Position numbers and translations under genes: made by a program
Assembly: GCA_016193065.1 (NCBI GenBank)
Contig: JACPSX010000243.1
Location: 1 to 17,117, forward strand
Direction of reading: 5' to 3'
Source: Candidatus Tectimicrobiota bacterium
GTDB lineage: Bacteria > JACPSX01
Length of the DNA: 17,117 nucleotides
In this document: piece by piece, positions 3,896 to 10,766 of the stretch
Position numbering within the stretch: position 1 is the stretch's first letter
How the letters are laid out: every line of letters begins with the position of its first letter
The notes under the pieces: generated by a model
What the model saw: only the letters and a program-made list of their open reading frames with translations
Database searches by the model: none
Told to the model about the DNA's origin: nothing

Positions 3896-4986
3896 GAGAC
3901 TCGGGTCCTCCTCTCCACAAGCGACCAGAATTCTTTTTCGGACCGCAGCCGCAGCCCCAGGCGCAGGACCAGGCAGGTCGGGTTCCAGCGGCGCTCCAGC
4001 CCTTCGATCCGGACCCCGTCTTTTTCCGTCGTGACGAGAAACCGGGCGCCACGGGCCCGGGCCTCGACTTCCAGGTCCGCAATCTCACCCGCAGTGTACC
4101 AGTGATGGTCACCAAAATCACGATGACCGATCAGGTTCGCCCCCAGACTTTTCAAAAGAGCCAGAAAGGACGCAGGATCGGCCAGGCCTGAGAAGGCCAT
4201 TACAGGACTCTCCCGCAATAAGTCCACGGGATGCGCGGGCCCGGCGTCGATTTCCAGCAGGGCCTCGGCCGTGTAGTCTACCTCAAACAAGGGCACCTCG
4301 GGGCACAGAGATTGTACGGTGGCCCGGACTTGCGCAAGCCCCGCAGAAAGATTGGCCCGGGTGATGAAGATCCCGTGAGCTCTGCGCAGGGCGCCGGGAG
4401 GCTCCCGCAGAATCCCGCGGGGAAAAAGGCAGCCGTCACCAAACGGGTCCATCCCATCCACCAGAACCAGATCCAGGCAGCGCCGCAAGGCCAGATGCTG
4501 GAAGCCGTCATCCAAGATGAAGAAATCGACCCCACAGTTTTTTCTGGCCCACATCCCACCGCGGTAGCGGTTCTTGTCCACTACAACAGGGACCTCGGGG
4601 AGCCGGCCCGCCAGCAAAAGAGGTTCATCTCCGCACTGGGCGGCGGACAGAGAATTCCCTTGCGCATCCCCGACCCGGAAGGGCACCCCCACCCGCTTCG
4701 CGGGTACCCGGGCTCTGCGGGCTCCATACCCGCGCGTTAAAATGGCTACCTTCTTTCCTCTCCGGCTGAGAGCTTCCGCAAGCCACAAGGAGAAGGGCGT
4801 TTTCCCGGTTCCCCCGAGAGTGAGATTTCCCACACTGATCACCGGGCAGGGTAAAGAGCGGGATCGCAAGACGCCCGCCCGGTAGATCCCGCGCCGTGCC
4901 GCCAGAGCAGCCCCGTACCCCCAGGAAAGAACAGACAGGAGAGCTGACAGCGCTGCCGGGAGCTTGCCTTGTCGCCACTTATGCAC
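3892..4986 (-). CDS. lpxK: Tetraacyldisaccharide 4'-kinase LpxK
   Basis: LpxK phosphorylates the 4' position of the tetraacyl disaccharide 1-phosphate using ATP, giving lipid IVA at the inner membrane. The family signature VGNLTLGGTGKTP contains the P-loop (GGTGKT at residues 58-63 from the chosen start). RGYG, GDEPLLL and the conserved DDGFQH (159-164), which holds the catalytic/metal aspartates, follow in the expected order. A hydrophobic N-terminal segment with LSWGYG matches the membrane anchor of the family. I chose GTG at 4986. It gives an N-terminus (MHKWRQGKLP) like that of E. coli LpxK, and GGGGAGG lies 10 bases upstream at 4997-5003. The frame also opens earlier, with TTG at 5043 and GTG at 5013. 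The TTG start would overlap waaA by 11 bases but has a poor ribosome binding site. The stop overlaps the GTG of the lpxL-type gene. Confidence 0.93.
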   Translation of the reverse strand: MHKWRQGKLPAALSALLSVLSWGYGAALAARRGIYRAGVLRSRSLPCPVISVGNLTLGGTGKTPFSLWLAEALSRRGKKVAILTRGYGARRARVPAKRVGVPFRVGDAQGNSLSAAQCGDEPLLLAGRLPEVPVVVDKNRYRGGMWARKNCGVDFFILDDGFQHLALRRCLDLVLVDGMDPFGDGCLFPRGILREPPGALRRAHGIFITRANLSAGLAQVRATVQSLCPEVPLFEVDYTAEALLEIDAGPAHPVDLLRESPVMAFSGLADPASFLALLKSLGANLIGHRDFGDHHWYTAGEIADLEVEARARGARFLVTTEKDGVRIEGLERRWNPTCLVLRLGLRLRSEKEFWSLVERRTRVS

Positions 4987-5032: not shown

Positions 5033-6370
5033 TCAGATTCCAATTGCTTCTCTCTGGTTCAGGGAGCCGGCGAGAGCTTGCAAAGCCCGCTCCACAGCTC
5101 CCTGGTTCTGGACGACGACTCGATACGCTTTCTCGCCCACATCGAGCCCGAGGGCCGGATTTTCCAGAATCCGGCGGGCCCACGTTTGCAGATCCCCAGG
5201 TGTGCCTACCTGAAGCCCGCCTCCACCCGCTCGGAGGGCTCCGGCAATCTCGGCAAAATTATCGACGTGGGGACCGAACAGAACGGGTTTCTTCCAGGCA
5301 GCCGGCTCCAGGAGATTGTGCCCGCCAAAGGGAACGAGGCTTCCACCCACAAAGGCCAAGACCCCGACCCGGTAGAGAGCGGACAATTCCCCCAAGGTAT
5401 CCACGACGACTACGGGAGAGGAAGCCCGGTCCGTCCCGTCCCGAGAAGGGAAATGGCTTAGCCGAACGCTCCGAAGTCCCCCCCGGCGGACCACCTCCTC
5501 GACCTCCTCCAGGCGTTCCAGGTGCCGGGGAGCCAGGATCAGGAGGCGTCCCGGTCGCTCCTGCACCAGAGGGCCCAAAGCGCTGAGGATCAGTTCCTCC
5601 TCTCCGGGATGTGTGCTGCCGGCCACAATGGCCTGATAGGCGGAAAACTCGCGGCAAAATCTCTCCGACAGTTCCAGTGTGCGGGGGTCTTCTGCAAGAG
5701 CCCCGTCATATTTCAGGTTCCCCTGCACCAGGACCCGCTGCGGGGGAGCACCCAGGTCAATGATCCGGCGGGCGTCCTCCGCCGTTTGCATGGAAAAGGT
5801 GTCGATCCCGGACAAAACAACCCGCATAAAGGGCCGCAAGGTCCGGTAGCGCCGGAAAGAGCGCGGGGAGATGCGGCCGTTGATCATGAGGCTCGGAACG
5901 TTGCGGCGCTTGAGTTCCCGCAGCATGTTGGGCCAGATCTCCGTCTCCATCATGACAAAACAGGAGGGCCGCAGAATTTCAAGCGAGCGCCTCACCGCGG
6001 GGGCAAAGTCAAAAGGGAAAAAGAAGATCCGCTGTGCCTCTGCCAGGCGCTGCCGGGCCACGGCCTGGCCGGTGGGGGTTACCGTGGAGACGGCAATTCG
6101 CAGGTCGGGAAAGCGGCGCGTGATTTCGCGCACCAGAACCTCGCTGGCAGCCACCTCCCCAACGGATACGGCATGCAGCCAGAGAAGGGGGCCCGTCTCC
6201 GGATTATGAACGGGGCCCAGGGAGAAGCCCAGGCGCTGGGCCAGACCCGCCCGGTATTTCTTCCGAGTGGCCAGCCTCCAGGCCAGCACCGGCAGGCCTC
6301 CGACCCCGGCCAGAACCAGGAGGGCATTGTAAGCCAAGTAGGCCAGACGTTCAGCCGCGGCAGAGGGCAT
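5033..6370 (-). CDS. waaA: 3-deoxy-D-manno-octulosonic acid (Kdo) transferase WaaA/KdtA
   Basis: This 445-residue GT30-family protein transfers Kdo from CMP-Kdo to the lipid A precursor. The N-terminal hydrophobic anchor covers roughly residues 11-33. LHAVSVGEVAA follows, with the presumed catalytic base Glu72, then STVTPTG, METEIWPN (141-148), INGRIS and QGNLKYD in the N-domain. The C-domain contains GSTHPGEE (251-258), FVGGSL and GGHNLLEPA (349-357), all conserved in Kdo transferases. The length is usual. The ATG at 6370 has a strong GGAGGAGG (6374-6381), and the start lies inside the last codons of the preceding acyltransferase (20-base overlap). Whether the enzyme adds one, two or more Kdo residues cannot be read from the sequence. 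Confidence 0.95.
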   Translation of the reverse strand: MPSAAAERLAYLAYNALLVLAGVGGLPVLAWRLATRKKYRAGLAQRLGFSLGPVHNPETGPLLWLHAVSVGEVAASEVLVREITRRFPDLRIAVSTVTPTGQAVARQRLAEAQRIFFFPFDFAPAVRRSLEILRPSCFVMMETEIWPNMLRELKRRNVPSLMINGRISPRSFRRYRTLRPFMRVVLSGIDTFSMQTAEDARRIIDLGAPPQRVLVQGNLKYDGALAEDPRTLELSERFCREFSAYQAIVAGSTHPGEEELILSALGPLVQERPGRLLILAPRHLERLEEVEEVVRRGGLRSVRLSHFPSRDGTDRASSPVVVVDTLGELSALYRVGVLAFVGGSLVPFGGHNLLEPAAWKKPVLFGPHVDNFAEIAGALRAGGGGLQVGTPGDLQTWARRILENPALGLDVGEKAYRVVVQNQGAVERALQALAGSLNQREAIGI

Positions 6371-7004
6371 CGACCTCCTCCGTGATCCGGTTCAGCCCCT
6401 CTTCCAAAAGGAGTCGGGTCTCCTGCCCGCGCTGCCGCAGATCTTCCGGGGTGACCCGCAAGAGTCCGCCGAACTGGATGACGACCCGGCTAAACGGCAA
6501 GGGAATCAGGAAGCGGTCCCAGCTCTTGCACACGAAGGCGCGGCGGGCCGCGGATGTGGTCAGGAGCAAGGGCGCTCCGGTTCTCGCCGCCAGATCCAAC
6601 GCACCCTCCTGGGCCTGGAAGCGGGGCCCGCGGGGTCCGTCCGGGGTAATGGCCACGTCATGGCCGGCCTTCACCTCCCGCACCAGCGCCGTGAGCCCCC
6701 GCGCCCCGCCGCGAGAGGAGGAGCCCCGGACCGTGCGGAATCCCAGACGCTGGAGAAACGCATTAATAATTTCCCCGTCCCGGCTGAGGCTCACCAGTGT
6801 GCAGATCTGGCGATGGCTGCGGGACAGGATGGGGCACAGCATGCGGCCGTGCCAGATCGCATAAATGAAAGGCCGGCCGCCGGCCCGCAGGCGCTCCTCG
6901 GCTTCGGAGTTGCGGACCTCGATCCGCAGGGACTTGTAGAGGGCCCAGAGAAGCGGGATTCCCAGACGCGGGATCAGGAATTGAAGAGTGCGCTGCCATT
7001 TCAC
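6351..7004 (-). CDS. DUF374 acyltransferase, LpxJ-type lipid A late acyltransferase candidate
   Basis: This 217-residue protein shows the DUF374 signature blocks: AIWHGRML (49-56), LVSLSRDGE (70-78), RGSSSRGG (93-100) and ITPDGPRGPR (119-128). DUF374 includes Campylobacter jejuni LpxJ, a late acyltransferase of lipid A that is unrelated in sequence to LpxL/LpxM and can act before Kdo addition. The presumed catalytic His52 lies in WHGRML, where the LpxL-type HX4D/E spacing is not kept (Cys at the sixth position). A hydrophobic stretch at residues 8-24 may anchor it to the inner membrane. The gene starts at GTG 7004, overlapping the lpxB stop in GTGA, and sits just before waaA. That order fits acylation between LpxB and WaaA. 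DUF374 membership is secure; the LpxJ role is inferred from family and position. Confidence 0.85.
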   Translation of the reverse strand: MKWQRTLQFLIPRLGIPLLWALYKSLRIEVRNSEAEERLRAGGRPFIYAIWHGRMLCPILSRSHRQICTLVSLSRDGEIINAFLQRLGFRTVRGSSSRGGARGLTALVREVKAGHDVAITPDGPRGPRFQAQEGALDLAARTGAPLLLTTSAARRAFVCKSWDRFLIPLPFSRVVIQFGGLLRVTPEDLRQRGQETRLLLEEGLNRITEEVDALCRG

Positions 7005-8152
7005 TCCAGCGCTCTCCCCGGGCGTTCTTCCAGGAAAGTGGCGATCTCCCGCGCCGCCCGTGCCGCCGCTCCACCGGGTCCCAGCATCCCGGCGATCCGG
7101 CCCAGTTCCTCCTGCAGGCGACGGCGACGATCCTCATCACACAAAAGGGGGACTGCAGCGGCGGCGATTTCCCGGGGGTTGGCCCGGCCCTGCAGCAGCT
7201 CCGGCACCAGCTCCTTGCCGGCCAGGATGTTCACCAAGCCTGCCCAGGAAACCTTCACCAGAGCCTTTGCAAACATCCAGCTCAACGGGTGCAGCTTGTA
7301 AAGGATCACCATGGGAGCTCTGAGCAGCGTCGCCTCCAAGGTCGCCGTCCCCGAAGCCACCAGGAGGAGGGAAGAAAGTCGTATGAGGTCGTGGGTCCGG
7401 TCTTGAACCACGAGGATAGGAACGGGGTTTCCCTGCAGGAGCTCCTGCACCAGCTCATCGGGAATTGTGGCGGCCTGGGCCAGAGCAAAGCGGGCTGCCG
7501 GGACCTGCTCACGGATCAAGGGCAGGGATTCGACCATGAGCGGGAGGAGGGTGCGAACCTCTCTCTCCCGGCTGCCGGGAAGCAGGCCCACCACAGGTCC
7601 GCCCTTCTCCAGGCCCAGCTCCACCGCCAGTTGGGAATCTCCGCCGCCGGTTTCCAGGCGATCCACCAGCGGGTGCCCGACGCACGTGACATCCACTCCA
7701 GCGCGTTTGTAGAGGGGAACCTCGAAGGGAAACAGGACCAGCATTTTGTCCACGCAGCGCGCGATTTGCCGGATCCGTCCGGGGCGCCACGCCCAGATCT
7801 GGGGACTGACATAATAGATGACCCGGATTCCGGCCCGGCGGGCCATCCGGGCCAGGCGCAGGTTAAAGCCGGGGTAGTCGATGAGGATGGCGGCAGCGGT
7901 CGTGCCCTTGCCGATTTCGTATCTCAAGTCCTTATAGACCCGGCGCAAGAGCGGGATCTTCTTCAGAACTTCCGCGACGCCGACCACGGCCATCTCGCGG
8001 GAATCGTGCCGGGTGCGCACTCCTGCGGCCCGCATCTGCGGGCCCCCGACCCCCCAAAACTCCCAGTGGGGCTGCAGCGCCTTCAGGGCCGCCACGAGTT
8101 CGGCCCCCAGCGCATCTCCCGATGCTTCTCCGGCAACTACGAGTAACCTAAT
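7001..8152 (-). CDS. lpxB: Lipid-A-disaccharide synthase LpxB, apparent ATT start
   Basis: LpxB (GT19) condenses UDP-2,3-diacylglucosamine with lipid X to form the lipid A disaccharide at the inner membrane. Family motifs appear in order: VVAGEASGD at the N-terminus, GVGGPQM, IDYPGFN, YVSPQIWAWRPGR (114-126), VGHPLVD, and LLPGSREREV (190-199). The conserved block RLLVVAGEASGDALGA lies upstream of the first usual start codon (GTG at 8095), which would remove it. The frame is open only back to a TGA at 8176, and no ATG, GTG or TTG occurs between that stop and the block. ATT at 8152 follows AAGGGG (8159-8164) by six bases and would give M-RLLVVAGEASGD, the usual N-terminus and a normal 383 residues. 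A one-base sequence error joining the frame of an ATG at 8190 is the alternative. The 3' end overlaps the next gene by four bases. Confidence 0.9.
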   Translation of the reverse strand: MRLLVVAGEASGDALGAELVAALKALQPHWEFWGVGGPQMRAAGVRTRHDSREMAVVGVAEVLKKIPLLRRVYKDLRYEIGKGTTAAAILIDYPGFNLRLARMARRAGIRVIYYVSPQIWAWRPGRIRQIARCVDKMLVLFPFEVPLYKRAGVDVTCVGHPLVDRLETGGGDSQLAVELGLEKGGPVVGLLPGSREREVRTLLPLMVESLPLIREQVPAARFALAQAATIPDELVQELLQGNPVPILVVQDRTHDLIRLSSLLLVASGTATLEATLLRAPMVILYKLHPLSWMFAKALVKVSWAGLVNILAGKELVPELLQGRANPREIAAAAVPLLCDEDRRRRLQEELGRIAGMLGPGGAAARAAREIATFLEERPGRALE

Positions 8153-8158
8153 TGTTCG

Positions 8159-8164
8159 CCCCTT
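8159..8164 (-). promoter_or_regulatory. Shine-Dalgarno sequence deciding the lpxB start
   Basis: AAGGGG on the minus strand lies six bases before ATT at 8152. It is the only good ribosome binding site near the conserved N-terminus of LpxB, and it places initiation at that ATT rather than at the internal GTG at 8095. Confidence 0.55.
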
Positions 8165-8197
8165 ATCAACGGATCAGGGTCTTCAGTCATTCCCAAC

Positions 8198-9022
8198 TTA
8201 TCCGCGAGCTTTGCTTCCGGTCACCGCGACCAGCTTGATGCCGCACTGCTGCGCCCGCTCCACAGCCCGGGGGCGATCGAGAACCAGGGTGCTGCCGGCC
8301 TCCACGGCCAGCACGGAAGCCTTGCCCGCGGCCATTGCTTCCACGGTCCTTAACCCGACCGCGGGAAGATCGAAGCGCAGATCCTGGCGAGGACGGCTCA
8401 CCTTCACCACGACAGCCCCCTCCCCGGCCAGGCGGCAGCCCCTGTCAATGGCGTCGTCTGTCCCTTCCAGAGCCTCGACGGCAACAATCGTTTTCTCTTT
8501 GACCACCACGGTCTGGCCGATGTCGAGTCCGGCCACGGCCTTGGCCAGGCCGAAGCCGAAATCGACGTCTTCCTGTTCCCGGACCGTGAGCTTGCCCCGG
8601 GTCAGGCTCCCCGGCCGTGGAATCAGGTCTCCCAGGAACCGGGACTGCTCCAGGATCTCCATTCCCTCCTTTTCCATTTCCTGAACGATGGCCTGGAAGA
8701 TCGTCATGTCGTTCTGGTTGCGCAGGCGGCGCAGGATCTTGAGGGCCCGCAGGTCGAGGGCAGGGCGGGAAAACAGGAGCCCCTTGTGGATCTTGCCGAT
8801 CATGAGAATTTGCCGGATCTGCTCCTTCTTCAGGCAGGCCAGGATCTTGTTGGCCTGTCCGATGCCGAGGCGATACACCCGGGCGCTTAACGGGGCCAGC
8901 TCTTCGCGGGCAGCGTCGCTGAGGGCAATCCCGATGACTTCGTAGCCCTGGCCGGCCGCGCCGCGGGCGCACAGGGCGGGCAGCGATCCTTCCCCGGCAA
9001 TGAGTCCCAACCTCAGGGTCAT
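8198..9022 (-). CDS. lpxI: UDP-2,3-diacylglucosamine pyrophosphatase LpxI
   Basis: LpxI hydrolyses UDP-2,3-diacylglucosamine to lipid X and UMP, replacing the unrelated LpxH of E. coli. The 274-residue protein has the family layout. The N-terminal domain begins with GLIAGEGSLP and also contains IGKIHKGLLF. The C-terminal domain contains FLGDLIPRPGSLT, LDIGQTVVVK, AVEALEGTDDAI and RQDLRFDLPAVG (212-223). In Caulobacter LpxI a C-terminal-domain aspartate is essential; one of the aspartates in the DLRFD block is the probable equivalent, though I cannot align it here. The ATG at 9022 lies two bases after the stop of the dehydrogenase gene, and the protein then starts at the expected MTLRLGLIAG. 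The frame remains open further upstream, but that part is a shadow of the neighbouring gene. It sits directly before lpxB, the next step in the pathway. Confidence 0.94.
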   Translation of the reverse strand: MTLRLGLIAGEGSLPALCARGAAGQGYEVIGIALSDAAREELAPLSARVYRLGIGQANKILACLKKEQIRQILMIGKIHKGLLFSRPALDLRALKILRRLRNQNDMTIFQAIVQEMEKEGMEILEQSRFLGDLIPRPGSLTRGKLTVREQEDVDFGFGLAKAVAGLDIGQTVVVKEKTIVAVEALEGTDDAIDRGCRLAGEGAVVVKVSRPRQDLRFDLPAVGLRTVEAMAAGKASVLAVEAGSTLVLDRPRAVERAQQCGIKLVAVTGSKARG

Positions 9023-9987: not shown

Positions 9988-10766
9988 TGCTTCCCCGCTG
10001 ATAAAATCCCGCGCTCGGACTTTTCGATAAACTCCAGCAGATGCCGGATCTCTTCCCCAAGCTCGATTTCGGACCGGATGCGGTCCAGAGCCTGGGAAAC
10101 ATTGCATCCGGAGAGGAACAAGATCTTGTAGGCCCTCTGAATATCCTGGCGCACGGAAGCTGGAACCTGACGGCGCCGAAGCCCGATCGTGTTCACCCCT
10201 CTGGCCACGGCCGGCCTGCCTTCGGCTATGATATAGGGGATCACATCCTTGGTGACCCCGGACATCCCCGCGATGATGGCCAGGCAGCCGATCCGGTTGA
10301 ACTGGTGCACCCCGGCATACCCGGACAGGATGGCGCCGTCCTCCACGGTCACAAACCCCGAAAGGCCCACATAGTTGGTGAGCACGACATCGGATCCCAC
10401 CTGGCAATCATGCCCCACATGGCTGTACGCCATGAGGAAACAGCGCTCGCCGACGACCGTGGCCTCGCCCTCCCGGCTGGCGCGGTGTACCGTGGCAAAC
10501 TCTCTCACCATCGTCCCCGCCCCGATTTTAACACAGGAGGGCGCCCCTTTGTATTTCACGTCCTGAGGGGGGCCCCCCAGGACGGCGCCGGGACCGATGA
10601 GGCAATCCCGGTCAATCTCCGTATACCCCTCGATGACCGCGTGGGGGCCGATCCGGGTGCCGCTGCCGATGCGGACCCCTTCGCCAATGACCGCATAGGG
10701 GCCGATGGAAACGTCTTCCCCGATTTCGCAAGACGGGTGAATGACGGCGGTCGGGTGAATTGCCAT
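9984..10766 (-). CDS. lpxA: UDP-N-acetylglucosamine O-acyltransferase LpxA
   Basis: LpxA transfers a 3-hydroxyacyl chain from ACP to the 3-position of UDP-GlcNAc (or its 3-amino analogue in some bacteria), the first step of lipid A synthesis in the cytoplasm. The 260-residue protein starts MAIHPTAVI and shows left-handed beta-helix hexapeptide repeats through about residue 180. AYSHVGHDC contains the catalytic histidine (His119 here, His125 in E. coli). VHQFNRIG and GMSGVTKDVIPY follow, then NTIGLRRRQ and the helical C-terminal domain. The length is usual. The ATG at 10766 is 12 bases after fabZ, and the stop overlaps the next start in ATGA. Acyl-chain length and amino-sugar preference depend on residues I cannot assign without an alignment. 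Confidence 0.96.
   Translation of the reverse strand: MAIHPTAVIHPSCEIGEDVSIGPYAVIGEGVRIGSGTRIGPHAVIEGYTEIDRDCLIGPGAVLGGPPQDVKYKGAPSCVKIGAGTMVREFATVHRASREGEATVVGERCFLMAYSHVGHDCQVGSDVVLTNYVGLSGFVTVEDGAILSGYAGVHQFNRIGCLAIIAGMSGVTKDVIPYIIAEGRPAVARGVNTIGLRRRQVPASVRQDIQRAYKILFLSGCNVSQALDRIRSEIELGEEIRHLLEFIEKSERGILSAGKQ

Follow-up and report, generated by a model that had tools for sequence, protein, structure and literature searches.

That infC starts at codons other than AUG is well known. Outside infC, we know of only a handful of genes with natural AUU-class starts. Gene callers do not search for such starts, which is why few are known. In E. coli, infC and pcnB have AUU-class starts, and IF3 discriminates against that of infC (PMC9410913). 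The AUU start of pcnB is credited to Binns and Masters 2002, as cited in PMC9410913 and PMC13009471. In S. aureus, cvfC1 starts at AUU while ccpN and citZ start at AUA; in reporters, these starts give ~10% of the AUG level (PMC13009471). Besides infC, natural AUU-class starts amount, in E. coli, to roughly one in several thousand genes (pcnB; PMC9410913) and, in S. aureus, to about three genes (PMC13009471). Here, we analysed lpxB of an uncultured Candidatus Tectimicrobiota bacterium. Judged by its sequence, this gene is a candidate addition to the known, very rare class of genes with AUU-class starts.

lpxB lies in a close-packed operon

The window is the whole stretch of DNA that was analysed (17,117 nucleotides). 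On its minus strand, close-packed genes follow the order bamA, skp-like, lpxD, fabZ, lpxA, Gfo/Idh oxidoreductase, lpxI, lpxB, acyltransferase-like, kdtA, lpxK and lpxL-like. Some names come from profile matches, the remainder from the genes' own sequences. A search for RNA families across the window found none. lpxB and its neighbours are as follows.

8198..9022, minus strand: lpxI, the complete upstream neighbour of lpxB; start ATG 9022, stop TAA 8198-8200
7001..8152, minus strand: lpxB coding sequence from ATT, 383 amino acids plus stop (7001-7003)
6351..7004, minus strand: acyltransferase-like gene downstream of lpxB; its own GTG start overlaps the lpxB stop

The lpxI product aligned with profile NF047836 over positions 1-272 of 275 (2.8e-34), below the curated cut-off of 400 bits. 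The acyltransferase-like gene had no NCBIfam match and is named from its position and sequence. If lpxB starts at ATT, the gap to lpxI is 45 nt. This is long for the operon, in which most neighbours overlap or lie no more than 16 nt apart.

The conserved N-terminus of LpxB precedes every canonical start

Translated from ATT, LpxB scored 281.4 bits against TIGR00215, above the curated cut-off of 190.25, and the match spans almost all of the profile (positions 8-376 of 382). The gene also matched PF02684 (8.5e-93) and is present in a single copy in the genome. The sequence-only reading had described the product as of normal length, and 383 amino acids compares well with E. coli LpxB chains of 382 (structures 5w8s and 5w8n). 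E. coli LpxB aligns from the conserved GExSGD block, which is found here as VVAGEASGD, in frame just 3' of the ATT. Two features delimit the start region.

8174..8176, minus strand: TGA, the upstream closure of the lpxB frame
8150..8152, minus strand: ATT, proposed lpxB start codon, with no canonical start between it and the closing TGA; the G of GEASGD is 7 codons further on

On the minus strand, the frame reads TGA (8176-8174) TCC GTT GAT AAG GGG CGA ACA ATT (8152-8150), then AGG TTA CTC GTA GTT GCC GGA GAA GCA TCG GGA GAT. No ATG, GTG or TTG lies in the frame between TGA 8174-8176 and GTG 8095, which is the first canonical start. Hence, two statements of the sequence-only reading hold: the conserved N-terminus precedes every ATG, GTG or TTG in the frame, and the closing TGA and the codons listed up to ATT were correctly placed. 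Reading TGA 8174-8176 as selenocysteine was rejected; a second in-frame TGA lies at 8185-8183, with no start between.

GTG 8095 lies past GEASGD. A start there would drop RLLVVAGEASGD, including the equivalents of E. coli LpxB E15 and S17, which belong to the same motif and are listed among the active-site residues (PMC5785501). GTG 8095 is a poor start because these residues would be lost. It would nevertheless be the place to begin if lpxB is a decaying gene that has lost its start and is either translated from this GTG or no longer translated. Such decay could draw on the rank of GTG 8095 as first canonical start and on the moderate GGGGG upstream of it. However, lpxB, a single-copy gene, shows no other damage, the lpx operon around it is complete, and the truncated product would have no GEASGD. 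We consider decay very improbable.

A Shine-Dalgarno-like element precedes the ATT codon

The sequence-only reading had placed AAGGGG six bases before the ATT. We found this element at 8164-8159, with the spacer CGAACA. The features in this region are listed below.

8160..8166, minus strand: TAAGGGG, Shine-Dalgarno-like; 6-7 pairs, one of them G-U, in a register uncertain by one base (8159-8165)
8157..8180, minus strand: small hairpin; CCCU pairs there with AGGG, part of the ribosome-binding site (RBS)
8137..8190, minus strand: mini-ORF from ATG 8190 (MTEDPDPLIRGEQLGYS), in another frame, stop 8137-8139; its ATG would be the rival start, should a base have been lost between it and lpxB

Each RBS was scored by its pairing to the anti-Shine-Dalgarno and its spacing. 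No 16S rRNA was found in the assembly. Hence, the anti-Shine-Dalgarno was assumed to be canonical. For background, we used 60 contig stretches of the same genome (556 kb, of which 551 kb was unmasked; two stretches were wholly masked), with 406 ORFs called by codon use.

TAAGGGG is spaced 5-6 nt from ATT. By pairing and spacing it is a strong, well-spaced Shine-Dalgarno element; it is weaker by duplex energy alone. The score was 7.65 for ATT 8152, 5.8 for GTG 8095 and 3.3 for ATG 8190. In the same-genome sample, 2.1% of 17,368 background codons scored at least as high as ATT 8152. A near-cognate codon (ATT, ATC, ATA or CTG) with an equally good site occurs by chance in 0.76% of 8-codon start-free stretches. 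The duplex energy at the ATT site was -7.6 kcal/mol, which is equalled or bettered at ~7% of random positions. RBS support for ATT 8152 is real but moderate. The hairpin at 8157..8180 was not significant (-7.1 kcal/mol, z = -1.2; matched or bettered by 25 of 200 shuffles). Weak as it is, it may partly mask the RBS.

The mini-ORF offers one route into the lpxB frame that needs no start at ATT. A programmed -1 shift after its codon CAA would reach that frame. However, the mini-ORF frame contains no slippery X XXY YYZ heptamer from 8190 to 8152, ATG 8190 is a weak start, and there is no notable structure. Frameshifting of this kind seems scarcely credible.

Start positions in relatives of LpxB

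Relatives of LpxB were located by the motif GE(A/P/V/T)SGD, and the block is hence present in all sequences compared. Across the searched genomes and contigs, none exceeded 47% identity. Where the frame could be followed, starts lay mostly 8-14 codons before the G of the motif. ATT 8152 is codon 7 before the G of GEASGD; the same position is ATG at loci L044 and L100, and GTG at L102. ATG 8190, if joined to the frame, would sit at about codon 20, within the range of the relatives and in its tail. A canonical in-frame start was present in the other relatives inspected, all at most 47% identical.

Two loci had no nearby canonical start, the nearest plausible ones being 43 (L067) and 35 (L108) codons upstream. 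L067 is an Omnitrophota lpxB. Its nearest in-frame ATG, GTG or TTG is 43 codons before GEPSGD; in related loci, an ATG stands at codon 11.

Gene breaks in the assembly

The draft genome is a fragmented, metagenome-type consensus of 294 contigs and is 86% complete. Using a frame-change scan with profile searches in the 551 kb sample, we found at least seven conserved genes split across two frames with profile positions missing. This equates to at least one break per ~80 kb. The genes are given with the profile positions between which each is broken.

tgt: break, profile 204 to 256
livH-like: break, 124 to 162 (UrtB profile)
dctM: break, profile 186 to 204
CoA ligase (acyl-CoA ligase): break, profile 562 to 639
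ubiD-like: break, profile 54 to 65
phnD-like: break, profile 117 to 145
parA-like: break, profile 206 to 224

Taken in the order tgt, livH-like, dctM, parA-like, CoA ligase, ubiD-like and phnD-like, these genes are on L170, L145, L115, L114, L139, L119 and L159. A similar-looking split in flgD, on L138, was seen without a profile test. The confirmed breaks are deletions of ~7-77 codons, none a clean one-base indel, and such frame-breaking deletions are probably assembly joins. They are a serious ground for caution over the ATT start.

If a break of this sort lies between the conserved block and ATG 8190, a base, two bases or a longer segment may be missing there. The true start would then be ATG 8190 or a lost codon. 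The seven broken genes lend weight to this explanation. ATG 8190, 7 nt past the lpxI stop, also suits the tight spacing of the operon, and the N-terminal extension that it would add is within the range of the relatives. Against this, all seven confirmed breaks lose ~7 codons or more, and at this junction the ends of both adjoining proteins are intact. A deletion of the observed kind at the lpxI-lpxB junction is unlikely; it would need a much longer original spacer in a compact operon, and it fits poorly because the lpxI C-terminus and the lpxB N-terminal block are both complete. The RBS of ATG 8190 is weak (3.3 versus 7.65). By codon use, the ATG 8190 frame from 8187 to 8160 is below background as coding sequence, a stretch so short that the comparison has little power. 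The well-placed TAAGGGG before ATT would also be left to chance (0.76%). We regard a frame break as somewhat unlikely.

A subtler error would leave the frame alone. The start may truly be ATG, its third base read as T through a consensus error or a minority population variant. The RBS and the N-terminus are accounted for equally well, and such an error might occur in a consensus that is of metagenome type and comes from a fragmented assembly. However, the error must fall on one particular base, and no substitution error has been demonstrated in the assembly. A miscalled ATG is improbable. Taken more broadly, assembly error at the lpxB start, whether a one- or two-base indel or a start-codon substitution, is possible. 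We judge the prior of a small indel or wrong base in the 40-nt leader to be of about the same order as that of an AUU-class start outside infC.

Possible near-cognate starts elsewhere in the genome

The infC gene of this genome (contig C29:4440-4940, minus strand) has no canonical start before the conserved INE-IR block, and its first ATG is inside the block. It reads as an ATC start behind AAAGGGGGTGA. At L141:1865-3839 (plus strand), no canonical start precedes the N-terminal helix of a chemoreceptor-like gene. There, a CTG behind AAAGAGGAGG (GAGGAGG), with 6-nt spacing, looks like the start. Given the infC ATC and the L141 CTG, the organism seems, as far as its genes can be read, to use near-cognate starts.

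Three further loci drew our attention. On the minus strand of L154, at ~10198-10201, a peroxiredoxin-like frame runs through TGA (...VVLLFYMIHT(TGA)DSCRLQLGKLQETVRELTEEGAAVLVISID); it has a UxxC-like motif and is a candidate selenoprotein. A selD-like gene on the minus strand of L125, at ~4853-4856, reads MEASQSIRLTSLSHGAG(TGA)GCKISPQDLAQVLRQLP..., the TGA falling where SelD is expected to have Sec/Cys. This TGA would be supporting evidence for selenocysteine use in this organism. Separately, a type III CRISPR-associated locus lies at L113:984-3672 (minus strand), where RAMP-superfamily and Card1-like CARF/nuclease genes are neighbours.

ATT 8152 as the probable lpxB start

That LpxB is intact, that no canonical start keeps its conserved block, and that the RBS has the placement and strength described are direct observations. 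The ATT is preferred because no canonical alternative keeps the N-terminus, the RBS is well placed and infC of the same genome appears to start at ATC. With the priors of an AUU-class start and of assembly error judged to be of the same order, it is the RBS that tips the balance to AUU. We give a rough probability of 0.55 that lpxB starts at a real AUU codon at 8152. This figure, and the weights that we attach to the four alternatives, are judgements and were not computed. Hence, the proposal of the sequence-only reading that lpxB starts at ATT survives as the best single reading, backed by the RBS, the N-terminus and the infC precedent; with a flawed assembly, it is not established.

Discussion

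The simplest scheme for an AUU start is as follows. Pairing of UAAGGGG to the 16S rRNA 3' end would set AUU 8152 in the P site, where initiator tRNA would read it as Met. This supposes that the assembled base is correct and that the AUU is used. Initiation would be weaker than at an AUG, by several-fold, and IF3 could reject it. LpxB synthesis would thereby be kept low within the tightly packed lpx operon. By analogy with the S. aureus reporters (PMC13009471), AUU at lpxB, if real, would be expected to work at perhaps 10% of the AUG level, and so to yield less LpxB.

In E. coli, LpxC is the main point at which lipid A flux is determined. Limitation of lipid A flux by a rare start is plausible, but a control role for LpxB is speculative because of this dominance of LpxC. 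A further step would be that a true AUU start holds an essential lipid A gene at low, IF3-sensitive expression, and so makes lipid synthesis for the outer membrane responsive to the condition of the translation apparatus. We think this coupling doubtful.

If the start were proven, on an essential envelope enzyme, it would suggest that near-cognate starts can set enzyme levels in metabolic operons. Automatic annotation would also be seen to shorten proteins of this kind, with loss of the catalytic N-terminus in this case. If the ATT is an error, the case urges caution in reading start codons from fragmented assemblies.

The closest parallel is infC, with its AUU, AUC or AUA start and IF3 autoregulation. 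As in lpxB, an AUU-class codon stands behind a strong RBS; the infC of this genome reads ATC. The difference is that the product of infC is IF3 and the start of that gene serves for feedback, whereas we know of no link between LpxB and start-codon selection. E. coli pcnB, like lpxB, is unrelated to initiation, and its translation is described, in the papers citing the original work, as limited by the AUU start. By the same accounts, pcnB is nonessential and its start is experimentally proven, whereas the lpxB case is known from sequence alone. The starts of S. aureus cvfC1, ccpN and citZ were mapped by ribosome profiling and are conserved in relatives (for citZ, in one lineage), which sets them apart from lpxB (PMC13009471). 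Like lpxB, these genes combine a near-cognate start with an extended RBS, and citZ is a gene for a metabolic enzyme (PMC13009471).
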